The notes beneath the pieces were generated by a model. It saw nothing but the letters and a program-made list of their open reading frames with translations, was not told the origin of the DNA and searched no databases. Below, piece after piece: positions 18,703 through 59,505 of a DNA stretch of 59,850 bases. The position numbers were made by a program, and so were the translations under genes. The DNA is taken from NCBI GenBank assembly GCA_015061495.1, contig SUWL01000008.1, positions 1 to 59,850 of the forward strand, in the 5' to 3' direction. How positions within the stretch are numbered: position 1 is the first letter of the stretch; each line of letters starts with the position of its first letter. Origin of the DNA: Lentisphaerota bacterium (GTDB lineage: Bacteria; Verrucomicrobiota; Lentisphaeria; Victivallales; Victivallaceae).

Positions 18703-19809
18703 ATGCGCTGCTTGAACTGGTATGTGACCAAATCATTTCTGATAACTTTTTTCATGGCGATCCTGGTATTGACCTTTGCCATGACCGGAGCAAATCTCAT
18801 CAAGGTGCTGGACTATATTTCCAGAGGTATTCCTTTTATCATTTTTTGCAAATACATGCTGTATATCATCCCGCGGATACTCACATTCACTGTGCCATGG
18901 GCAGTCATGGTTTCAGCCGTACTGATATTCGGCAGAATGTCCGCCGACAATGAAATCACCGCCATGCGTGCCTGCGGGGTAAGTATCATGCAGATCATCA
19001 GCCCGATCCTGCTGATCACCTTTTTGATGACCGCTTTGTGCGTCTACCTGCAGGTCGAAGTCGGTCCCCCGCTGCTGGGTAAATCCCGTACTATGATGAA
19101 AGAAGAAGCCGCAATCCGCCCCATGGCACTTTTTGAACCGGGCAATCCATTCAGCTATTCCGAGGGTGATTCCAATATCGTCATATCCATTGATGACCGG
19201 ATCAACGACAATGAGTTGCGGGGAGTTATTTTCTGCAAGACCGACAAAAACGGCAATATCCTGCAGGAGATCAACGCCGCCCGGGGCGTCGTGGAAAGCG
19301 ACATGGAAGAGATGGTTTTGAAGTTCACCTTGCTTGACTGCATTATCACTGACCGTACCGGCGGATCGGATGAAGGGGTGTCCCGGGCATTCACCCAGAA
19401 CTTTTCATTCCAATACAACTACGGTAAAGAAGCCAACGGGCAGCAGTTGAGCGTAAAAGCCAAATATATGCCGCTTAAAGAACTGCTCGGGGAGATCCGC
19501 CGTACCAAATTGAAAAATGAAGATACCACCCGACTGGAAATCGAATTGAATAAACGGATCGCCTTTGCCCTCTCCCCCATCGCCTTTCTGCTTATGGGGA
19601 TGCCGCTGGCGATCCGCACCAGCCGCCGGGAAACATCCATCGGACTTTTTATCAGCGTGGTTTTGGCAGCGGTCTACTTTTTCTCGATCATCCTCTTTGA
19701 ATCTCTGGATAAATTTTCCTGGATGTACCCGCAATATCTGCTGTGGATACCCAATATCATATTCCAGATACTCGGCGCGATCATGACCTACAAAATCTCT
19801 CAAAGGTGA
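18703..19809 (+). CDS. LptF/LptG (YjgP/YjgQ) LPS export permease
   Basis: 368 residues with three N-terminal helices, a central periplasmic beta-jellyroll-like domain (about 125-265) and three C-terminal helices, the standard LptF/LptG layout. It forms the inner-membrane part of the LPS transporter with LptB and couples to LptC. ADNEITAMRACGVS matches the coupling-helix region of the family. Only one of the usual two permeases is in the window; which of LptF or LptG it is cannot be decided. A GAGAG site precedes the ATG. Confidence 0.85.
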   Translation: MRCLNWYVTKSFLITFFMAILVLTFAMTGANLIKVLDYISRGIPFIIFCKYMLYIIPRILTFTVPWAVMVSAVLIFGRMSADNEITAMRACGVSIMQIISPILLITFLMTALCVYLQVEVGPPLLGKSRTMMKEEAAIRPMALFEPGNPFSYSEGDSNIVISIDDRINDNELRGVIFCKTDKNGNILQEINAARGVVESDMEEMVLKFTLLDCIITDRTGGSDEGVSRAFTQNFSFQYNYGKEANGQQLSVKAKYMPLKELLGEIRRTKLKNEDTTRLEIELNKRIAFALSPIAFLLMGMPLAIRTSRRETSIGLFISVVLAAVYFFSIILFESLDKFSWMYPQYLLWIPNIIFQILGAIMTYKISQR

Positions 19810-38198: not shown

Positions 38199-40082
38199 TT
38201 ACTTATCTTTTCCCGGCAGAAACACACAAAATGTTGTTCCTTTGCCGGGAGAACTCTCCAATTGAACCCAGCCCCGGTGATGAGAAATGGTACCATAAAC
38301 CATTGCCAACCCCATTCCGGTACCTGAACCGACCGGTTTGGTCGTAAAAAACGGCTCAAAGATTTTTTTCCTGGTCTCCTCATCCATACCGCTGCCATTG
38401 TCCCGGACGGCAAAGTAGAGGTAATTCCCGGCGGAAGCATCCGGATGATCCGGCGGCGGAGCAAATCCGATCGGCGGTGTCAGAGCCGGACCGGCACTTA
38501 AATCAATGAGTCTGTCCCCGCTGTTTCCGGCGGTGGCATCCAGCGCATTGATCAGCAGATTCAATACCACCTGCTGCATTTGCACCTGATCGCCGCAAAC
38601 TATCAGCTCTCCGGATGAAAAATCACTGGTGAATACAACTCCACCCACCCGGAACGGATCAAGCATACCGATACACTCATTGAGCAGTTCTTTAAGGTCG
38701 ATATCCACGACCTGATATTTGCCTTTGCGGGCAAACCCCAGCAGCTGCGAGGTCAGTTTACCGGCTTTTTCGGCAATGGAAGAGATCTTTTGCAGGTGAT
38801 TGCCCACCTTTTCCGGATCATTGACATAAAGCATTTCCGCCACATCGGCATGTCCCATGATCGCATGAATACAGTTGTTGAAGTCATGGGCGATACCTCC
38901 GGCAAGCACGCCCAGAGATTCCATACGCTGCGAATGCATCAGCTGCACGGTAAGTTCCTCCTTTTCCCGTGCCAGAGTCACCTCTTCGGTAATGTCCCGG
39001 GCGATAAGCACCAGCAGTGACCGGGATTTCAGGCGGATGGGGGAGAGCGAAGCGGACAGGATCTGGTCATCCTGACCGGCAGATATGGTACAGTTGAAGT
39101 ACTGCGGTTCTCCATTAAGATCATTCAACGAAAACGGCGGATCCATGGTCCCCAGCAGAGAAAAAATATTTTTACCGGTCAGAGAATCCTGGGAACGGAC
39201 TTTGAAAAATTTTACAGCAGCAATATTCGCTTCCGTGATCCTGCCGTTTTCGTCAGTTACCACTACCACCTCGGCAGTGTGACGCAAAATCAGATGGTAA
39301 CGGTTTTCCCAGCTGTTGAGGTCAGCTTCCAGCTCTTTGACCCGGCTGTAACTGCCGAAAAAGGCAAATACGAAGTCAAACGTCCCGTTGCCGGAATCGT
39401 TGACATCTTTCTCAAGCATGGCAAGATAAAATGATAGCATCACTCCGGGGAACGGCGTTATCGCCAGCAATGTCAGCAGCGATGACCAGGAAAAAGTCCC
39501 GACATTGCCATTGATCTTGTACAGGATAATTTCCGGGATCGCCCCCAGCAGCAAGGCGCCAAGCATAGCCGAAATGATCCTCAATGTCCTGCCGATGCGC
39601 CGGGGGGCCCCACTGTAAAGCAGCGGCAGAGTAAAGAGGGAAATCAGATTGGATACCGCACTCAAATTCACCGATGCCGTACCATTTGAGAGCAGTAACA
39701 TCACCACATCCCGCAAAGGTCCGGGTGCCATGTGACGGCATTGCATTCTCATCAGCATGGCGAAGTATATACACAGCAGAAAACAGACTACGATACCCAG
39801 CAGCAGCCGCTGGGCTTTCAAAACTCCCAGGGAAATATAGATCATCAGAAATGCCGCAAGCAGCGGCAGAAACACCGCCGTCTGTGCCACATTGAACACC
39901 CCTCCCCACGGCAAAGGAGCGTAAATTTCTGCGGCATTCATCAGCACTCCGAAAAGCATCATCGTACCGTAAGCCATCGTCACCGGAGCAACGCCGATCC
40001 GCTCGCGCTGGTGACACAGTGCCGCAAGTATCACAAAGATAAAAAGTAATTCAAGAACAACTGCTGCAATCTGAAAATCCAT
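38199..40082 (-). CDS. Membrane sensor histidine kinase with PAS domain
   Basis: 627 residues. About seven N-terminal membrane helices (1-230), a PAS domain (about 265-375, [15 protein letters not shown]), HisKA with H-box GIAHDFNN, and HATPase_c with [20 protein letters not shown] and GTGMGLAM. No receiver is attached and no response regulator is encoded nearby, so its partner is unknown. The multi-helix N-terminus is likely the sensor. It is 20 nt downstream of gmhB. Confidence 0.88.
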
Positions 40083-50995: not shown

Positions 50996-51024
50996 TTGAC
51001 AAAATATTGTTTAAACAGTATATT
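50996..51024 (+). promoter_or_regulatory. Strong promoter for the 51-kb secreted protein
   Basis: TTGACA (50996-51001), 17 bp, TATATT (51019-51024), a nearly perfect consensus. Confidence 0.75.
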
Positions 51025-51078
51025 TTTATCATCGCACGGTGCGAATTAACACCTTATAACAAAAGGAAAGGTAAAAAA

Positions 51079-51480
51079 ATGTTCAAAACGATGTTTATTT
51101 CAATGGCGTGTATCATGGCTGCAGTCACCGTTTGCGCCGCTCCCAAAATCAGTTTCTCTCAAGATACGAAAGAAGCAACTATGGCAGCTTATCTGGGGGC
51201 AATGGCCTACGAAGATTGTGACTTGATGTGGCAGCTTATGGATCCTGCCGTTGTCAAAGTAGCGATTGCCGGATCCGGCTCTGAAGAGGCGGCAAAAAAA
51301 GAGTTTTGGAAAGGCGTTTCCAGTCAGATCAATCCCCAGATCGTGCAAAAACTTAAAGAAGTTTACAACAATAACGACCTGAAACAACAGGCGGTTGCCG
51401 GTCTTATGCAGCAGTACGGTCACTGGCTGGTAAAAGTCAACGGCAAATGGTATCTCAATATTTTTAATGAGAAAAAATAA
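51079..51480 (+). CDS. Small secreted protein, possibly NTF2-like
   Basis: 133 residues starting MFKTMFISMACIMAAVTVCAA, a clear Sec signal peptide. The mature 110 residues end in HWLVKVNGKWYLN, a pattern common in NTF2-like and DUF4878-type domains, though this is weak. GGAAAGG precedes the ATG. It has its own strong promoter and terminator, so it is a single-gene transcript. Confidence 0.65.
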   Translation: MFKTMFISMACIMAAVTVCAAPKISFSQDTKEATMAAYLGAMAYEDCDLMWQLMDPAVVKVAIAGSGSEEAAKKEFWKGVSSQINPQIVQKLKEVYNNNDLKQQAVAGLMQQYGHWLVKVNGKWYLNIFNEKK

Positions 51481-51590: not shown

Positions 51591-51636
51591 ATACCGTCAA
51601 AAACAGCGGGAACGATCCCGCATTTTTCAGGATGGG

Positions 51637-54600
51637 TTATTTTTTCCTGCCTCGCAGCCGGATATTACCGGCGATCACGGCGGCGACAACCGCGATAATG
51701 ATAACGGCGATTATTTTCAACGCCGGGGCACTCTCCCCTTGCGGAGTTTGCGGAAGAGTTTCTGCCAATTTAACTCCGGAAACATCTTTTTGTTCCGGAG
51801 AAGCGGCGGCAGTTTTTTTCAATTCCAGAGATTTGGCAATCTGCTGTTCAAAACTTTTACGCAATTCCGGATCTTTCAAAGATTTTTTGATCATCTCCTG
51901 CAATTTGGCATTATCCACCGGCGGCAGGTCAAACTTACGCATCAATTCGGCGTGATTCCGGGCAATATCCTCAACGGTTTCCGGATCTGCCTTCCAGAAG
52001 CCTTTACGGACGGATTCCAGCATGATCCCGGTCATTTCATGCAGTACCGCCGGATTGTTTTGCTCAAAGAAATCCTGCGTACCGAGTTGCAATTTGTCAT
52101 CCACATAAACTTCTTTATACTCCTGCCACAAGTGATCATCCAGCATATCCGGTTTCATGATCTCCCAGCCCAGAGTATTGCGCATGATTTCAGCGAATTG
52201 TCCGGAAGCAGGTGCGCCTTCTTTCATCATCTCTCTGATGTATTTCGGGTTAAGCACGGTGCTTCTGGCCTCGACCATGGCTGCTTCACCGGCGGTCTGC
52301 ACTTTGGCTTTACCGGCAGTACGCAGATCATTGAAGTACGCTTCCGGATCTTTGCCGTTGACATGGCGGGCGGCAAGGCTCATTCCGCCGGTAAACTCAT
52401 AGACATGATCCAGAGAGAGCGCACCCCAGCTGTTGCTCGAACGGGACTGCACAACGGAATCGGTATTCTTTACAGCGGCACGGAACATTTCAGGTTTATG
52501 CTCGCCCCAATGACCTTCGGTATATACGGCACTCATATTGTTCAGGTAAAGTTCAGCAATACCTTTCGTATCTTCCCATTTGCCGGTATCTTGTGCCGCC
52601 CCCATTGCTCCTGTGCCAAAATTACCGTTGACTCCGCCAAAAATACGGGCATTGCTCAACTCTTTTGCGGACTGCGGCGACATGCCTTGCGCGATCAAAG
52701 CGTTGGTGATTTCCAGACTGCCATGCCGGACAAAGTTGCCGAATTCGCCTTCCGGGTCGGCGGCAGCCAGCATGACAGCTTTGTCGATGAGCTTCATCCG
52801 GCTGGTCGCTGCTCCCCGGAACTGCCCGGAGGTCTGAATGACGACATCGATCCGCGGACGTTTGAGTTCACCGGCAGGGATCAGCCGGACATCCCGGACT
52901 CTTCCCCGGGAATCCCAGACCGGTTCTACGCCCAGCAGATAAAATATTTCACCGATATTCACGCCTTGGGTACGGATGAATTCTCCACCCCAGAGTGAAA
53001 ATGCGACTTTTTGCGGATATTTGCCGGTGCTTTTCAATCTCTGCCTGATGAGTTCTTCAGCGAGCTGCTTACCGACCTCAAAACTCTCTTTCGTCGGCGT
53101 GCGTTCCGGATCAATGCCGTAAAGATTTTTACCGGTCGGCACAGTTCCGGGATTGAGGATCGGATCACCTCCGGCGGTAGCGTAAATATAACCTCCGGCA
53201 AACGCATTGACGATCGAATCAAGTTCAGCGGCAGAAGAGTCCAGCAGATCCTGACGGGATTTCAACAGCACCTCTTCCGGGGAAAGCCGTTTTTCCGGGG
53301 CTTTTTCCCTGCCGGGACGGACTTTCATCATCTGCATTGCCTGCAGCATTTGCGGCGGGATCGGGCGGCCGTCGGGAAGTTTGCCGCTCTGCATCATTTT
53401 TTGCATTTCTCCGGCATCGGCACTCATTTTCTTTCCCGGATGTGCCGGTTTTTCCGGCGGGGCAAGCCGTTTGAATTTCTCCGGTGCTGCCAACACTTCA
53501 GCGGCGTATTCTTTAGCGCGCACAACATAATTGTTGCGGAAAAAGATCTTATCTTCACGTTTTTCCGGAGTTACTTTACCTGCTTTAACATCCCGGTCAA
53601 ACAATTCACCGGCAAGCACATCAACATTCATCAATATCGCTGTTTCATCCGCTTGGGCATCACTGTACGGTCTGCCGACGACATAGACACCGCGATTTAC
53701 TTTTGCATCATTGATCTCGTGCAGATATTCCTGGATTTTCAGCAAATCATCTTCGGTAAGAACACCTTGCTGGAGTTTTTCAGAAAGTTTCAGATCTTTA
53801 TGAATATTCTCCTGCATTGCCAATTCGATGATCGCTTTGCCATACCCGGATTTCAATTTGGCATTTTCAGCGGTTGCATAATGGTGAAGTTTCTCCTGCA
53901 GCAAAGCGACTGCACCGTAACTGTCGGAATTCATAAATGGCGGAGTCAGATGGCTGATCATCGTGGCATAACTGCGCCGTTTGGCGATTTGCGCCTCGCC
54001 GATATTATTGATGATATACAAATAATAATGGGGTATTTCTCCGATGAGGACATCCGGCCAGTCATAACTGGAAAGTGCCGCCTGCTTCCAGGGGGTGAAT
54101 TCCAGACTGCCGTGAGTTCCTACGTGCATCAACGCATCCGCTTTGAATCCGTGCCGCAGGTAGAGATAAGTGGCGATATAGGTGTGCGGCGGAGAAGTTT
54201 TCACTCCGTGGATCAACTTGTTTTCATCTGCGCCTTCCCCGGGGAGCGATTGAGGCATTAAAATCACATTCCCGAAACGGATACAGCCGATTGCCATATT
54301 ATTTTCTTTTGTACGGAACATTTTCCCCGGAAAATCGCCGTACCGCTCAACGACAGTGGAATACAAATCATCGGGCATACTCTTTTTCACCCAGCTTGAA
54401 TACTCGTCGGGCGTAATGATAACGGTCTGAATATGTTTGGGAGTAAGCTGTTTTGTGCCGCCGATTTTACCGAAAATTGCACTGTTTTCTTTGATTTCTT
54501 TATCCAGAGCTTCCACTGATTCCGGGAGAACACCGGTATTGTAACCTTCTTTTTGCAGACGGTGGAGAATATTCAAGATTGACTGTGAAGTACCGAGTCC

Positions 54601-55722
54601 GGCAGTAGCAGATTCCTTTCCGATAGAGCCGTAGTAAATCAAAGCGATTTTCTTATCCGCATTATTTTTCCGCTTCAAAGCGGCAGTTTTTCTGACCATT
54701 TTCACAAACCGTGCCAGCCGGTCGGGAATCATCCGGAATTCCATCAGTCCCCGGGAATTTTTGTACAATGCTGAAAGCACAAACGGCACGATGCCGCCGT
54801 CCAATTCCGGCATGGTGATACTCTGACTGAGCATGCCGCCGGTCATGCCCCGCTGATCTTTCAGAAACTCCTCATAATTCTGATTGACCTTGAGCGGACA
54901 GAAAAGCGGAATGTTTTTTTCTTTCAGAAATTCGACCGCTTCATCCCCCAATCTGCCGTGCGGCTGATAGATGACCAGATCCGGAGCGATTTTTTCCATA
55001 ACCTCCCTGCCGGGCCACAAGCCGGAAACTGCAATAACGTTGCACTGTTCTTTTTCCAGAGCCCCGATCAATTCGCCGAGACTGCCGCCGCCGTTGCCGC
55101 CGAGAATACAGATCTGCGGACAGCCATCCTGATGAAATCCCTGCTGACGGTAAAAGGTAAAATATTCCTCAACTGTTTTGAATGAATTTTTGCTGTCGAT
55201 ATGAAAAAACGGTTTATGCTCCATCTTTTCCGGTGCCAGCGGTTCAGGGGCAAAGATCCGTTTGCCATCCAATTCAAAGCGGATATAATCCAGCATCCGC
55301 CGGAAATTTTCTTTACCGCCGAAGCGCAGATACTTATCCAGCATCTCTTTCTGTTCCGCACTCAACGCCGAAGCCAGCGCAGTTTCCTGCCGCGTGGCAG
55401 ATGTGGTGTAGACCGGACACGGCAAGCCGGCAAGCAGTTTCTGCTGGGCTTCGGTGAAATTCAGCCCCATTCCAAAAAAAATCACGCAGTCGGCATCCCG
55501 CAATTCTGCGCCGCTTTTATCGTTCCACGCAAGATACCGGATATCCAGTGCGGGATTCAACTCCTGATCCAGCAGCGGCGCAAGGATATATTCCGGATAG
55601 TTGACCAGATAGATCCGGGTGCTGGATGCATACCGGAAATACCCCCAGCACACCAAACCGGCTATCAGCAATACTGCCGCACCCGAAATCAGATATTTTT
55701 TATATTCCGTTAATATTTTCAT
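51637..55722 (-). CDS. hmuS: Membrane-anchored CobN/BchH-like chelatase (HmuS-like)
   Basis: 1361 residues. An N-terminal helix (YLISGAAVLLIAGLVCWGYF) and a C-terminal helix (ALKIIAVIIIAVVAAVIAG) anchor the body, which probably faces the periplasm. The CobN/magnesium-chelatase-H core is clear: HVGTHGSLEFTPWKQ, IAKRRSYATMISHLTPP, SLWGGEFIRTQGVNIGE, and RPRIDVVIQTSGQFRG. A Met-rich insert lies at about 766-798. Soluble CobN inserts cobalt; the anchored Bacteroidota relative HmuS has been reported to remove iron from heme. The neighbours (DUF2149, TolQ-like, polytopic) are those of hmu loci. ATG overlaps the DUF2149 stop (ATGA). Confidence 0.8.
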   Translation of the reverse strand: MKILTEYKKYLISGAAVLLIAGLVCWGYFRYASSTRIYLVNYPEYILAPLLDQELNPALDIRYLAWNDKSGAELRDADCVIFFGMGLNFTEAQQKLLAGLPCPVYTTSATRQETALASALSAEQKEMLDKYLRFGGKENFRRMLDYIRFELDGKRIFAPEPLAPEKMEHKPFFHIDSKNSFKTVEEYFTFYRQQGFHQDGCPQICILGGNGGGSLGELIGALEKEQCNVIAVSGLWPGREVMEKIAPDLVIYQPHGRLGDEAVEFLKEKNIPLFCPLKVNQNYEEFLKDQRGMTGGMLSQSITMPELDGGIVPFVLSALYKNSRGLMEFRMIPDRLARFVKMVRKTAALKRKNNADKKIALIYYGSIGKESATAGLGTSQSILNILHRLQKEGYNTGVLPESVEALDKEIKENSAIFGKIGGTKQLTPKHIQTVIITPDEYSSWVKKSMPDDLYSTVVERYGDFPGKMFRTKENNMAIGCIRFGNVILMPQSLPGEGADENKLIHGVKTSPPHTYIATYLYLRHGFKADALMHVGTHGSLEFTPWKQAALSSYDWPDVLIGEIPHYYLYIINNIGEAQIAKRRSYATMISHLTPPFMNSDSYGAVALLQEKLHHYATAENAKLKSGYGKAIIELAMQENIHKDLKLSEKLQQGVLTEDDLLKIQEYLHEINDAKVNRGVYVVGRPYSDAQADETAILMNVDVLAGELFDRDVKAGKVTPEKREDKIFFRNNYVVRAKEYAAEVLAAPEKFKRLAPPEKPAHPGKKMSADAGEMQKMMQSGKLPDGRPIPPQMLQAMQMMKVRPGREKAPEKRLSPEEVLLKSRQDLLDSSAAELDSIVNAFAGGYIYATAGGDPILNPGTVPTGKNLYGIDPERTPTKESFEVGKQLAEELIRQRLKSTGKYPQKVAFSLWGGEFIRTQGVNIGEIFYLLGVEPVWDSRGRVRDVRLIPAGELKRPRIDVVIQTSGQFRGAATSRMKLIDKAVMLAAADPEGEFGNFVRHGSLEITNALIAQGMSPQSAKELSNARIFGGVNGNFGTGAMGAAQDTGKWEDTKGIAELYLNNMSAVYTEGHWGEHKPEMFRAAVKNTDSVVQSRSSNSWGALSLDHVYEFTGGMSLAARHVNGKDPEAYFNDLRTAGKAKVQTAGEAAMVEARSTVLNPKYIREMMKEGAPASGQFAEIMRNTLGWEIMKPDMLDDHLWQEYKEVYVDDKLQLGTQDFFEQNNPAVLHEMTGIMLESVRKGFWKADPETVEDIARNHAELMRKFDLPPVDNAKLQEMIKKSLKDPELRKSFEQQIAKSLELKKTAAASPEQKDVSGVKLAETLPQTPQGESAPALKIIAVIIIAVVAAVIAGNIRLRGRKK

Positions 55723-56057
55723 TTTGTTTCCTCCGGCACATAGATGACCTCGCCGTTTTCAAGCTGATAAGCGATACCGACCCGGCGGCCCTTGCCGGTG
55801 CCGGAATTTTTTTCCGACTTGTAACGGGTGATCTTATTATCCTTTTTCACGATTATTTCCATATCTTCCTTACCGGCATTTTTAATAAATGCGGCATCTT
55901 CGGCGGTCAGAAATTCTGTCATCCGGGTCTGGATGACAAATGCCACCATCAACGCCACCGCAAACACCATTGCCACATCAAAAAGATTTACCAAACTGCC
56001 CATCGGATCGACCTCTTCCCCGGCGGCAGCACTTTTGTAACGGTCCCGGTAATTCAT
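55719..56057 (-). CDS. hmuV: DUF2149 (HmuV-like) membrane protein
   Basis: 112 residues: one N-terminal helix (DPMGSLVNLFDVAMVFAVAL) with an Asp in it, then a small periplasmic domain, a topology like ExbD/TolR. The motif NLFDVAMVFAVAL is typical of DUF2149. In hmu loci it accompanies a TolQ-like protein and may form a proton-driven motor. Start 56057 has GGGAG 5 nt upstream; the longer frame overlaps the TolQ-like gene and is rejected. Confidence 0.75.
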   Translation of the reverse strand: MNYRDRYKSAAAGEEVDPMGSLVNLFDVAMVFAVALMVAFVIQTRMTEFLTAEDAAFIKNAGKEDMEIIVKKDNKITRYKSEKNSGTGKGRRVGIAYQLENGEVIYVPEETK

Positions 56058-56058
56058 C

Positions 56059-56643
56059 TCATCTCCCGGCGGTTTGGCGGTCAAGGACATAGCGCAAGTT
56101 GGTGATTTCTTCAATATACCAATGCTTTTTGACGCTGTTGATAAGCAGGGCGATTCCGGCGACCGTACAACCGACGACAGTCGTGGCAAATGCGATCTGC
56201 ATATTGTACGCCATATTGGCGATATCCCCGCCCGCCAGTCCGGCAAGTGCCGGTCCCATCGGAATCAGCGTCCCCATAAGTCCCAGCATCGGAGCGGTTT
56301 TGGCCAGAAACCGGCTGCGTTCCAACTCCTTTTCATAAGATTGTTCTATTTCGGAAATATACTTCTCGCACTCCAGCTGATCAAATCCAAACGAAAAAAG
56401 CATCCGCACATGATCCGCAAAAATACCGTTCTCTTCAATATCTGTTTCACTGAACCGGACTGAATTACGGATCTTTGCCAACAGCAAAGCCCGTTTCTTT
56501 TTCTCCTGAAGCAAGCTTAAATATGTCGCACAAAAGCCCCCCAGTGAAATAAGTGCCGCCGCCAGCGATGCCAGCAAAAGAACGATCACCGGCAAAAGCA
56601 AACTTGCCGATATCCAGTTAAGGATTTGAGTTACCATTGACAT
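56059..56643 (-). CDS. hmuU: MotA/TolQ/ExbB proton channel (HmuU-like)
   Basis: 194 residues with three helices in TolQ order: an N-terminal one, then two late ones (MLGLMGTLIPMGPALAGLAGG and ATTVVGCTVAGIALLI). The TAPMLGLMGTLIPMGPAL segment matches the family's conserved motif. It likely energises the DUF2149 partner and HmuS-like enzyme. AAAGGA lies about 9 nt before the ATG; it overlaps the upstream gene by 26 nt. Confidence 0.8.
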   Translation of the reverse strand: MSMVTQILNWISASLLLPVIVLLLASLAAALISLGGFCATYLSLLQEKKKRALLLAKIRNSVRFSETDIEENGIFADHVRMLFSFGFDQLECEKYISEIEQSYEKELERSRFLAKTAPMLGLMGTLIPMGPALAGLAGGDIANMAYNMQIAFATTVVGCTVAGIALLINSVKKHWYIEEITNLRYVLDRQTAGR

Positions 56644-57343
56644 GAAGTTTTCCTTTCTTTTTCAATATGTAAAAAAACAGTGTACATCCGCCGACGATCA
56701 ATGCCGACAGTACCAGCAGCAGCAGCGGCTGCAGGAAATCAAAATTTTCTCCGGCAGAAACCAGTTTGGCTTCCGCCGCCACCGGCAGAAATACCGCCAG
56801 CACCACCAGTAAATATTCCCAATGCATCACCGCCAGTATCCGCCGCGAACGCTCCCGGAAAATCAGCCGCATGGTTTCCATTATCAATAATGCCGCCACC
56901 GGCAAAACTGCCGCCGTTGCCCATGCAAGCTGTTCAAACGTGTATTCCACCAGCTTGTTATACAGAAACATCTGGCAGTACCAAACCCCGTAAAAAAGCA
57001 GTATCGACGGCATGAATGCCAGAAATTTCAGATAATGTGCGATCCGCTGATAAACGGATTCCGGTTTCTTTGCCGCTTCGCCTCCCAACAGGGAAAACGC
57101 CAGAATAATGTTGATGAATTCCTGGATTATTACCAGACCGCATAACTCATTGAGCGTATCTGCATTGCTTAATGCCGTTTGAAATTCCAGCATACTGGTA
57201 TCCGCCGCTGCTCTGGCAAAGAAAAACGGCAGCAGCATCAGCATAATAACCGACAAATATTGTATACTCCGGTTGAGCAATGACAATTTACAGCAATTCT
57301 GCACGGCGGCAGTCAACAGCAGCATGACGATGAATAGCGGCAT
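56618..57343 (-). CDS. Polytopic membrane protein (HmuT-like or DUF2162-like)
   Basis: 241 residues with about seven predicted helices and short loops, ending with a Lys-rich tail. Function unknown. Its place before the TolQ-like, DUF2149 and chelatase genes matches HmuT of Bacteroidota and the DUF2162 protein of methanogen CobN-like clusters. Assignment rests on position and topology only. GGGGTG precedes the ATG; gap after the upstream gene is 4 nt. Confidence 0.6.
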   Translation of the reverse strand: MPLFIVMLLLTAAVQNCCKLSLLNRSIQYLSVIMLMLLPFFFARAAADTSMLEFQTALSNADTLNELCGLVIIQEFINIILAFSLLGGEAAKKPESVYQRIAHYLKFLAFMPSILLFYGVWYCQMFLYNKLVEYTFEQLAWATAAVLPVAALLIMETMRLIFRERSRRILAVMHWEYLLVVLAVFLPVAAEAKLVSAGENFDFLQPLLLLVLSALIVGGCTLFFYILKKKGKLHVNGNSNP

Positions 57344-57347
57344 TGAT

Positions 57348-57809
57348 TCACCCCAATTTCACAGCCGAGATCCGGTAGCCGCTTTTGCGCTTGACCAGCA
57401 CGATGGATAGTTTCCGGTCATTTGCAGTTTCCGCCCGCAAAATCCGGACGGAGGAGTTTTTTTCCAGTGTGAATATCTGCCACTTGTCATCTTTAACCAG
57501 CTGGGAATGCTCCTGCAGCAGCGCGAGCTGTTCTTTGACCGGATCGCATTTCCGTTCGATTTTGGCAAGTTCCCGGTCGGCTTTGGACATATTGAACAAC
57601 TTTTCCAGTGAGTGAAAATTGTTCCGGCTGCCCGCGTCCGTAATTCTTTTGCGGATATTCGTCAATGCCCGGTCGCCATCAGCAGTGACCGGAATTTCAC
57701 TGGGTACATACTGCGAAACATCATCTTTTTGCGAAGCAAACTGCCAGCAAATACTTCCGGCCAGAAGCGCAAACAGCAATGTCAATAAAATAATCTTGTT
57801 TTTCATCAT
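57348..57809 (-). CDS. Small membrane-anchored protein in the HmuS-like operon
   Basis: 153 residues. An N-terminal signal anchor (KIILLTLLFALLAGSICW) is followed by a soluble domain of about 125 residues with a predicted coiled, charged middle (LEKLFNMSKADRELAKIERK) and a beta-rich end. No family recognised. It is 18 nt downstream of the pseudopilin and 4 nt upstream of the HmuT-like gene, so it is probably part of the same machine. ATG 57806 is an equally good start. Confidence 0.6.
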   Translation of the reverse strand: MMKNKIILLTLLFALLAGSICWQFASQKDDVSQYVPSEIPVTADGDRALTNIRKRITDAGSRNNFHSLEKLFNMSKADRELAKIERKCDPVKEQLALLQEHSQLVKDDKWQIFTLEKNSSVRILRAETANDRKLSIVLVKRKSGYRISAVKLG

Positions 57810-57827: not shown

Positions 57828-59048
57828 TTATTCCGCCGGTTCGTAATTTTCCGTATCGTCCGCATCACTGCCCAAACCGCCGATCTTGAGTCTCCGGGCT
57901 GCTTCATCATCGTAAATGTAACCGATCTGCTCGCTGGAAACATGACCGTCCGCCCAGGCAATGCCCGCTGTCGAATTATGGCGGAACGCCGTCGAACCAT
58001 TGTCGATCGAATAACCGAATTTGGTGTAACTGCCCATACTGCCATACTGATCACCGAAACTTACGATCCCGGACGGATTGGCAATTTTTCCCGGACGGCA
58101 AACTTTGCCCGGGAAACTCATTCCCGGCCCCATCGTCGTCGTCGATGACCAGGGATGAATGGACATATTCGCACCAATACCGCTGCCATTGGCTCCGGTG
58201 ATCGGCTGACCGGAAGCACCGAAAAGTTCAGTGACCGACGGTTCCGGACAGAAAAACACATTGCTCTCTACCGCACTTTGCAAACTCTGGTCAACTCCGG
58301 ATTTGGTAAGATACGGAGTCAGAAACCCCTCCCCGGTAAAGTCGCAAACGTTAGCAGCAGTGCGCTTGCCGTTCCACGCTTTCATCTCGCCGAACATCTT
58401 TTCAGCCGCCGGGACAAAACATTCATTATCCTGCTGATACATGGCATCCGCTGTGGAAATCTGCTTCAATCGGCTGATGCAGCTGGCAGTGATCCCGCGA
58501 CTGCGGGCACTATTCAACGCCGGCAGCAATATCGATGCCAATATCGCGATGATCGCAATGACGACCAGCAATTCTATTAAAGTAAAATGGGAGTGTGCGG
58601 GGGACAAGGAAAACTTTTTTTCACGAGAAAAAAAGTTTTCCCTTTCCCCCGCGCCCCCTTTCTCTTTCAAAAAAAGCGGTACTCTTTGGGATACATATTG
58701 TCCGAGCCCCAGCGTAGAAAAGGGAGAGTTTTTCCGCAACCCGCCGCGCGGGCGGGAAAAAAAGTTTTCCCTTTCCCCCGCGCCCCCTTTCTCTTTCAAA
58801 AAAAAGCGGGATTCTTTGGGACATATATTGTCCGAGCCCCAGCGTAGCGACTCGTCGCGGCGTAGTGAAACGAAGACGGAAGGGCGAGTTTTTCCGCAAC
58901 CCGCCGCGCGGGCGGGAAAAGAGGTTTTTCCCCTCTCCCCAAACCCCACTTCCCTTTTCAAGAAAAGCGGGATTCTTTGAGATGATCTGTTCTGTGTTTG
59001 GACTGCAAAAATCGGTATTTCTGCTGCAACGATACTCTTGTTATTCAT
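57828..59048 (-). CDS. Pseudopilin with H-x9-DG motif and repeat-rich N-terminal extension
   Basis: 406 residues. The type-IV-pilin-like helix FTLIELLVVIAIIAILASILLPALN starts only at residue 155; residue -1 is His, not the usual Gly. The domain ends with HNSTAGIAWADG, the H-x9-DG signature of Lentisphaerota/Planctomycetes pseudopilins. Residues 21-150 comprise three degenerate repeats (P-L-F-L-K-E-x-G-G-A-G-E-R type). ATG 59048 has AAAGGG 8 nt upstream, so the extension is likely translated; a TTG a few codons before the helix is an alternative start. Function of this group is largely unknown. Confidence 0.75.
   Translation of the reverse strand: MNNKSIVAAEIPIFAVQTQNRSSQRIPLFLKREVGFGERGKTSFPARAAGCGKTRPSVFVSLRRDESLRWGSDNICPKESRFFLKEKGGAGERENFFSRPRGGLRKNSPFSTLGLGQYVSQRVPLFLKEKGGAGERENFFSREKKFSLSPAHSHFTLIELLVVIAIIAILASILLPALNSARSRGITASCISRLKQISTADAMYQQDNECFVPAAEKMFGEMKAWNGKRTAANVCDFTGEGFLTPYLTKSGVDQSLQSAVESNVFFCPEPSVTELFGASGQPITGANGSGIGANMSIHPWSSTTTMGPGMSFPGKVCRPGKIANPSGIVSFGDQYGSMGSYTKFGYSIDNGSTAFRHNSTAGIAWADGHVSSEQIGYIYDDEAARRLKIGGLGSDADDTENYEPAE
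58608..58641. repeat. Perfect 14-bp inverted repeat within the pseudopilin gene
   Basis: Arms GGAAAACTTTTTTT and AAAAAAAGTTTTCC with a 6-nt loop, inside the coding frame (encodes ENFFSREKKFSL). Looks like a terminator or a palindromic element. Confidence 0.75.
58621..58990. repeat. Imperfect direct repeats in the pseudopilin 5' coding region
   Basis: Two near-identical modules of about 87 bp (58631-58717 and 58760-58847) and a diverged third (about 58915-58990), with a second 35-bp module (58726-58760 and 58886-58920) containing CCCGCC/GGCGGG. All three copies stay open in the pseudopilin frame. Confidence 0.8.
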
Positions 59049-59386: not shown

Positions 59387-59417
59387 ACTTAAATTAGCCT
59401 CGTCTAACTTTAATTAT

Positions 59418-59459
59418 AAAAAAAAACAGCCGCCCGGCAATCTGCCGGATCACACGGCT
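59418..59459 (-). terminator. Intrinsic-terminator hairpin in the leader (attenuator candidate)
   Basis: AGCCG ... CCGGCA-loop-TGCCGG ... CGGCT stem followed by nine T on the minus strand. It lies between the promoter at 59477-59505 and the 66-codon gene, so it would end transcripts after about 50 nt unless overridden. Confidence 0.7.
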
Positions 59460-59476
59460 CCTGATGTGTGGAATAT

Positions 59477-59505
59477 AATATAACACTAATAGACTGCTTT
59501 ATCAA
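59477..59505 (-). promoter_or_regulatory. Promoter for the right-hand minus-strand operon
   Basis: TTGATA (59505-59500), 17 bp, TATATT (59482-59477) on the minus strand. It is the only clear promoter found upstream of the 66-codon gene, pseudopilin and HmuS-like genes. Confidence 0.65.

Follow-up and report, generated by a model that had tools for sequence, protein, structure and literature searches.

Organization of the hmu locus

We analysed a stretch of 59,850 nucleotides (the window) from a Lentisphaerota gut bacterium (GenBank assembly GCA_015061495.1, contig SUWL01000008.1), whose minus strand carries an hmu operon: a class I chelatase, HmuS, is encoded together with the membrane proteins HmuT, HmuU and HmuV, and the operon is headed by the genes of a pseudopilin and a small anchored protein. 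The features of the locus are as follows.

51637..55722, minus strand: hmuS, class I (CobN/ChlH-type) chelatase of 1361 residues with N- and C-terminal membrane anchors (PF02514, match to the PDB, residues, anchors, tree)
55719..56057, minus strand: hmuV, DUF2149 protein of 112 residues, one transmembrane helix with an invariant Asp followed by a small extracytoplasmic part (PF09919)
56059..56643, minus strand: hmuU, MotA/TolQ/ExbB-type proton channel of 194 residues (PF01618)
56618..57343, minus strand: hmuT, hydrophobic polytopic membrane protein of 241 residues (profile match to the hmuT slot of Bacteroidota)
57348..57809, minus strand: anchored protein of 153 residues, predicted helices and a four-stranded sheet, weakly NTF2-like (AlphaFold2, Foldseek)
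57828..59048, minus strand: pseudopilin at the operon head, longest open reading frame 406 residues, true start unsure (TIGR02532, TIGR01710, PF07963)
58524-58586, minus strand: prepilin motif (PF07963) within the pseudopilin (Pfam scan)
51606..51621, minus strand: terminator-like hairpin about 15 nucleotides past hmuS (consensus scan, 18 found versus 11.3 expected in the region)
59413..59505, minus strand: promoter-like sites upstream of the pseudopilin (two sites with 10/12 matches; weak, since 12 were found versus 8.8 expected)

The Pfam family CobN-Mg_chel (PF02514) matched the product of 51637-55722 with an E-value of 9e-286 and 951 bits, PF09919 (DUF2149) matched HmuV with 2e-31 (scanned as 55719-56054, the ATG lying at 56057) and PF01618 (MotA_ExbB) matched HmuU with 3e-12 (46.9 bits versus a cut-off of 22.9). 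The 241-residue HmuT product gave no Pfam match, and a profile started from it recovered the HmuT position in Bacteroidota hmu operons. The pseudopilin scored above the cut-off of TIGR02532 and matched TIGR01710 with an E-value of 2.5e-8. Neighbouring genes overlap or nearly touch (an ATGA overlap between the DUF2149 and HmuS genes, 26 nucleotides shared by those of HmuT and HmuU), and S, T, U and V, which together define an hmu operon, are all present. The gene set described in a first-pass annotation of this DNA (a chelatase anchored at two ends, DUF2149, MotA/TolQ/ExbB and membrane proteins, the 153-residue protein and the pseudopilin) was thus found again at its place on the minus strand. 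Because related genomes repeat this gene order (pilin, small protein, T, U, V, S), the locus is not a product of chance; conservation of the neighbours in relatives had been proposed as a check by the same annotation. Its statement that the locus lacks cobalamin genes was also borne out: Pfam scans of 37 window proteins, and of no other open reading frames, turned up neither cobalamin nor heme-synthesis genes.

With the hmuYRSTUV operons of Bacteroides thetaiotaomicron and Porphyromonas gingivalis (HmuS structure PDB 9d26, as described in PMC12583661) the window has in common S, T, U and V, the heme- and active-site residues, the Met-rich insertion and the double anchor. It differs in gene order, T-U-V-S versus S-T-U-V (ending, in P. 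gingivalis, in the MotA and DUF2149 genes according to PMC10434189), in its heading pseudopilin and anchored 153-residue protein, in the separate tree set of its HmuS and in the absence of a HmuY or HmuR receptor gene from the operon, HmuY having been looked for in the fetched loci only, not genome-wide. Across relatives, the order was mostly receptor-(HmuY)-S-T-U-V in Bacteroidota and mostly T-U-V-S in Lentisphaerota, KSB1 and Planctomycetota, the KSB1 locus carrying a receptor upstream.

Window HmuS among class I chelatases

Compared with proteins of known structure, window HmuS scored 981 bits (E-value 8e-294) with B. thetaiotaomicron HmuS (9d26), 392 bits (5e-116) with ChlH and 337 bits (2e-99) with CobN. 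The heme ligands of the B. thetaiotaomicron enzyme at the head/neck interface, Met-79 and His-254 (in HGR), correspond to window M85 and H255-G256-R257, and its central-cavity residues His-538 (essential), His-1209 and Glu-1212 to H537, H1106 and E1109. The Met-rich insertion (domain IV) is present as a 77-residue slot containing 8 Met.

A tree of 88 chelatases was built with a quick IQ-TREE run under LG+G4 (support from the Shimodaira-Hasegawa-like approximate likelihood ratio test, SH-aLRT, only; long branches flagged; root chosen on the four CobN/BchH rows), omitting the broken or short rows L064, L084, L116, L124, L125 and L140 and unnamed duplicates of named loci (L and G numbers are our handles for loci and genomes). 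The HmuS clade comprised 74 of the 88 rows with 100% SH-aLRT and included the window, CobN and BchH standing apart, which answers the phylogenetic check suggested by the first-pass annotation. Inside this clade the window's set had 28 members (24 rows from Lentisphaerota, one from Verrucomicrobia and 3 ungrouped ones including the window; 98%), the other sets being one of 43 rows with Bacteroidota (99%) and one of three rows from Planctomycetota and KSB1 (85%). Since the window's set is distinct from that of Bacteroidota, its HmuS is best read as an old sister lineage of Bacteroidota HmuS; a recent transfer from Bacteroidota is unsupported by this Lentisphaerota/Verrucomicrobia placement. The claim of an HmuS-like enzyme outside Bacteroidota holds, with carriers in Lentisphaerota, one Verrucomicrobia metagenome-assembled genome (MAG), two Planctomycetota and one KSB1 MAG. 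The nearest named relatives were Lentisphaeria MAGs, L062 and L064 at 83-84% (both cut by contig ends) and L061 at 78%, while HmuS of the cultured Victivallis vadensis DSM 14823 (L080) stood at 65% to the window. Three Lentisphaerota assemblies, judged by contig prefix, hold two HmuS copies (L069/L074, L076/L131, L079/L083), and in two of these T-U-V adjoins one copy and not the other. The hmuS of one relative (G004; L036/L085) has an internal stop codon, and its two pieces were kept separate.

Cytosolic CobN, with its CobS/CobT-type AAA-VWA partners, and BchH/ChlH share with window HmuS the PF02514 domain and the His of the HxGTHG-type motif (H537 in the window), which was conserved in 88/88 rows. 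Unlike the anchored window enzyme, they are unanchored and have cobalamin, bacteriochlorophyll or ATPase neighbours. The possibility that the chelatase is a cobalt-inserting CobN of the cobalamin pathway draws on NCBIfam CobN models, which score 390-671 bits; every one of these scores is below its cut-off, however, the protein is anchored at both ends, no AAA/VWA partner lies in the operon and the tree places it apart from CobN. We regard this possibility as very remote, and a CobN or BchH identity was rejected on the cut-offs, the double anchors and the tree position.

A different question is which metal is handled. Outside the HmuS clade, other anchored chelatases linked to MotA and DUF2149 genes occur in Trichlorobacter, Runella, Azospirillum, Pseudoalteromonas, Diaphorobacter and Comamonadaceae, mostly without the heme-ligand residues of HmuS and several with a TonB receptor nearby. 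Their contexts include nickel (hyp genes in Runella, nikR in Azospirillum) and cobamide (Trichlorobacter), and a zinc context is given by Pseudomonas aeruginosa PA1922-1925, where the chelatase lies among genes marked as Zur regulon in PMC9431628. Plasmid-borne examples annotated CobN (L149, L150, L151, L155), some in nickel or cobamide contexts, were also seen and are likely metal-acquisition enzymes of other specificity. Such relatives would favour a Lentisphaerota enzyme whose substrate is not heme but a different metal or tetrapyrrole (zinc, nickel, cobalt), a reading that we nevertheless consider improbable, as window HmuS lies within the HmuS clade and, like almost every Lentisphaerota row, retains M79/H254 and H1209/E1212, residues mostly absent outside the clade. 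In the Lentisphaerota set, M79 was kept in 26/28 rows and H254-G-R in 28/28; among 10 chelatases outside the HmuS clade, M79 was found in 2, H254 in 2 (as H-G), R256 in 0, H1209 in 1 and E1212 in 1, and among the four CobN/BchH rows H254 in 0, E1212 in 0 and H1209 in 2. Counting against a heme enzyme, M79 is missing in 2/28 Lentisphaerota-set rows (one Arg, one gap) and in the Planctomycetota/KSB1 rows (3/3, with Arg or His there), and 3/28 Lentisphaerota-set rows have a Met slot of less than 30 residues with no Met. The first-pass annotation had left it between removal and insertion of a tetrapyrrole metal; kinship with the assayed B. thetaiotaomicron enzyme favours iron removal.

The motor proteins and their presumed client

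In 73 aligned rows (68 distinct loci) the membrane Asp of HmuV was kept without exception (73/73), and HmuU showed the conserved stretches LGL.GTLI and FaTTVvG. The ‘proton-driven envelope machine’ of the first-pass annotation fits this invariant Asp, the MotA/TolQ match and the anchors, and is retained here as an interpretation. Published accounts (PMC10100974, PMC12583661) have HmuU and HmuV energise the TonB-dependent receptor HmuR. A receptor gene indeed lies upstream of hmuS in most Bacteroidota loci fetched, and in the KSB1 and G196 loci too. If this role applied here, the Lentisphaerota lineage would possess an unseen receptor, which we judge unlikely from the evidence of the genomes.

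The host genome (2.67 Mb in 123 contigs, 89% complete) contains one PF02514 gene, one DUF2149 gene, one FeoB gene and one ExbD gene, the last separate from the hmu locus, and no TonB-receptor plug domain was found in it. An LptF/LptG gene in the window (18703-19809) points to a host with an outer membrane. We also considered a sample of 194 genomes of the phylum, host included: DUF2149 was present in 25, PF02514 in 27 and both in 24, versus 3.5 expected under independence, an assumption that genomes of one family do not satisfy. The plug was missing in 22 of these 24 genomes, yet detected in 129/194 of the sample. The two plug-bearing exceptions are G039, whose chelatase (L043) is outside the HmuS clade, and G196, whose receptor adjoins the chelatase. 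The only genome with DUF2149 and no chelatase (G131) gave a partial match of 30.8 bits, and no MotA appeared in the 8 kb around it. Three genomes had a chelatase and no DUF2149: G017, where a contig end intervenes, and G148 and G172, whose chelatases are unanchored, that of G172 adjoining CobW and a ChlI/ChlD-type AAA-VWA protein.

The membrane anchor of the chelatase was likewise associated with the motor. Among 95 chelatases with usable ends, judged on the stretch seen, 66 were anchored by a C-terminal helix and had MotA and DUF2149 nearby, 13 unanchored and 16 anchored ones were without a motor, and not one was unanchored with a motor; the anchor threshold (1.2) was set after the values had been seen, the lowest anchored value being 1.26 (L148) and the highest unanchored one 0.86 (L216), and there is close kinship among many of the 66 rows, two points that weaken the count. 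The truncated or frame-split rows L062, L070, L123 and L133 were omitted, and 11 loci received their motor label manually, in part from annotation. Four of the 13 unanchored enzymes had an ATPase partner in the stretch, eight had cobalamin or bacteriochlorophyll genes and one (G148) neither. As for the 16 anchored ones, five are in genomes with a motor elsewhere (L043, L068, L075, L080, L134) and two have the same assembly prefix as a locus that carries a motor (L074 as L069, L076 as L131). In G045, G052, G057 and G068 the motor genes (T-U-V) lie on a different contig from hmuS.

In a further proposal, HmuTUV is a permease that uses the proton gradient to carry heme or porphyrin through the inner membrane, HmuS only de-chelating heme or passing it on. 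Transport of heme across the inner membrane was put forward for P. gingivalis in PMC13227078, where an effect on HmuS activity is left possible. The polytopic HmuT does accompany hmuU and hmuV, even where hmuS sits elsewhere, and in Trichlorobacter the HmuT slot is filled by a membrane protein of DUF2162. Eight loci (L044-L046, L147, L149, L150, L155, L179), however, keep MotA and DUF2149 with an anchored chelatase and have no HmuT profile hit, although another membrane protein could substitute there. On balance we hold a permease to be rather doubtful, if still to be reckoned with.

Distances between loci bear on the receptor as well. Pairwise distances were compared across 29 Bacteroidota loci that have a receptor upstream. 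Those of U, V and T correlated with those of S (r.84,.69 and.80) more than with those of the receptor (r.20,.02 and.25; partial correlations given S -.06, -.25 and.04); all these distances share descent, so that they give support, not proof. Trichlorobacter has a complete ExbB-ExbD-TonB set of its own next to its MotA-DUF2149 pair. Archaea such as Methanosarcina acetivorans are not known to have an outer membrane. DUF2149 and PF02514 are both present in the M. acetivorans control genome (genome-wide), and clusters of HmuV and HmuS are listed for Methanomicrobia in a table of PMC10100974; the archaeal argument against a receptor rests on this one control genome and that one table.

Several observations weigh against a motor that belongs to the chelatase. 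The absence of the plug is a trait of the wider lineage, none being found in 59/60 relatives (host included; G039 the only exception), and a TonB receptor is also present at many of the motor-linked loci found outside Lentisphaerota, so the motor may have a double role, for receptor and chelatase. For receptor pairs of at least 30% identity (133/406), the correlations with the receptor rose to.48,.31 and.46 versus.83,.58 and.81 with S. Nine of the 16 anchored chelatases were traced to no motor elsewhere, their flanks or contigs ending, and the unanchored G148 chelatase has ABC-transporter genes as neighbours, the 10.7 kb examined showing no AAA partner. The HmuT profile fails to pick up the DUF2162 protein of Trichlorobacter, which takes the HmuT position, and other membrane partners may stand in for HmuT. 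As regards the motor proteins themselves, the similarity of HmuV to ExbD stated in PMC10100974 is one of anatomy only, that is a single transmembrane helix with an invariant Asp in the layout of a stator partner. In hhalign against 7 ExbD sequences (7 of 30 ExbD loci gave usable sequence) the probability was 0.7%, and a DUF2149 protein as true ExbD is thus unsupported. The AlphaFold model of HmuV was poor (predicted local distance difference test, pLDDT, 66; predicted template modelling score, pTM, 0.32), and a fold search with it returned no matches. Finally, purified B. thetaiotaomicron HmuS yields some protoporphyrin IX without HmuTUV (PMC12583661), so the motor is not absolutely needed for the chemistry.

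Taking both sides together, we consider it probable, with moderate confidence, that the Lentisphaerota hmu locus as a whole is best explained by a proton motor whose client is HmuS itself, because of the co-occurrence of motor and chelatase, the missing plug, the association with the anchor, the genomes with motor genes on another contig than hmuS, the loci without an HmuT profile hit, the distances, the separate ExbB-ExbD-TonB set of Trichlorobacter and the few turnovers of purified B. thetaiotaomicron HmuS, whose lysates need no ATP.

The pilin module and a possible working of the system

A same-strand pseudopilin heads 21 of the 31 Lentisphaerota hmuS loci with upstream sequence (counted by hand, five loci cut off upstream being excluded). 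The ten others, V. vadensis included, have no heading pilin, and one of them (L073) has a pilin-like open reading frame cut by a contig end. The 2.67-Mb host genome gave 77 prepilin-motif matches, a few being two in one frame; set against this number, linkage at 21/31 loci disfavours a chance neighbour. The linked pilins are not one clade: one well-supported clade holds eleven of them, among these the window pilin, and another clade holds seven (garbled rows L065 and L080 were left out of this tree, L178 was marked linked by hand and the root was of our choosing). A profile of the 153-residue protein, searched only in loci around hmuS, gave 16 matches, 11 of them distinct. These coincide with the loci of the eleven-pilin clade, the seven-pilin clade having 0 matches, so pilin and small protein vary together. 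The AlphaFold2 model of the 153-residue protein was good (pLDDT 88.4, pTM 0.71); its Pfam matches were all below cut-off, and in Foldseek the top rows were often NTF2-like, weakly so with E-values of 0.047 or worse.

A pseudopilin (open reading frame from 6844) also stands just before T-U-V-S, with hmuS running to 14794, in the planctomycete Aquisphaera insulae (L139), and falls outside both linked-pilin clades of Lentisphaerota. Around the 5′ end of the window pseudopilin (58625-58982) there are three copies of a repeat of 60-90 nucleotides. A 21-nucleotide piece of it had an exact match in only 3/220 loci (L032, L040 and L071, the last two from the same genome), inside the corresponding pilin open reading frames, and extra sequence after the FTLIEL motif was seen in the L032 and L071 pilins and in another pilin of L080. 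Elsewhere on the contig, a small protein with a signal-like N terminus and no family match above cut-off is encoded at 51007-51480, convergent with hmuS, and a VUPS-domain (vitamin uptake-like sensor) histidine kinase at 38199-40082.

For B. thetaiotaomicron HmuS, PMC12583661 reports conversion of heme to protoporphyrin IX and Fe2+ with a need for NADH and, in lysates, none for ATP; the membrane fraction is more active, and once purified the enzyme does not go beyond 1-2 turnovers. By analogy with this enzyme, window HmuS anchored in the inner membrane would strip iron from heme in the periplasm, giving protoporphyrin IX and Fe2+, and the released Fe2+ would be imported by FeoB; heme iron scavenging fits the genomic FeoB. 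HmuU, of MotA/TolQ type, and HmuV, with its invariant membrane Asp, would form a proton-driven motor in which ion flow moves the extracytoplasmic part of HmuV against HmuS, opening the enzyme, straining the porphyrin or expelling products and so allowing turnover. Such a motor would do in an ATP-less compartment what the ChlI/ChlD or CobS/CobT ATPases do for cytosolic relatives. HmuT would have an accessory role in the membrane, perhaps letting porphyrin through. In place of HmuY and HmuR, heme may be handed to HmuS by the pseudopilin and the anchored 153-residue protein. Gene identities, family placement, active-site residues, anchors, the association of motor and chelatase and the lack of a detected plug are read directly from sequence; the coupling of motor to chelatase and the role of the pilin module we infer.

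In G045, a gene for an exported flavin mononucleotide (FMN)-binding protein of RnfG type lies directly upstream of hmuS (L033:7236-8567, = L068; PF04205 matched in L033 only), a homologue of the same family lies near hmuS on the opposite strand in G004 (L036:561-1574, = L085) and a weaker one at L121:673-1209. This family is a candidate extracytoplasmic electron donor for heme reduction by HmuS.

The occurrence of motor-linked chelatases in nickel, cobamide and zinc contexts suggests a general metal-stripping machine. Class I chelatases may come in two powered forms, a cytosolic one driven by AAA+ ATPases and an extracytoplasmic, anchored one with a MotA/TolQ and DUF2149 motor. The latter would be a general stripper of metals (iron, zinc, nickel) with HmuSTUV as its heme member, and in Lentisphaerota it would work without a TonB receptor and be fed by the pilin module. 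This wider scheme we advance tentatively, with slightly more doubt than conviction.

Our search of open-access literature met with no claim that HmuS is driven by HmuU and HmuV, nor with any account of hmuSTUV in Lentisphaerota. As far as that literature goes, what is new is an hmuSTUV lineage in genomes where no TonB receptor was detected, the pseudopilin module that goes with it and the argument that the motor belongs to the chelatase. HmuS is presented in PMC12583661 as the first directly shown biological heme de-chelatase. The Lentisphaerota set removes the presumed client of the motor, the receptor, and leaves the chelatase as its constant partner; a motor acting on the chelatase would offer one explanation for the 1-2 turnovers of purified HmuS. 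The question of the motor can be tested directly in Bacteroides and in the cultured V. vadensis, and Lentisphaerota of gut and rumen join the likely anaerobic heme degraders.

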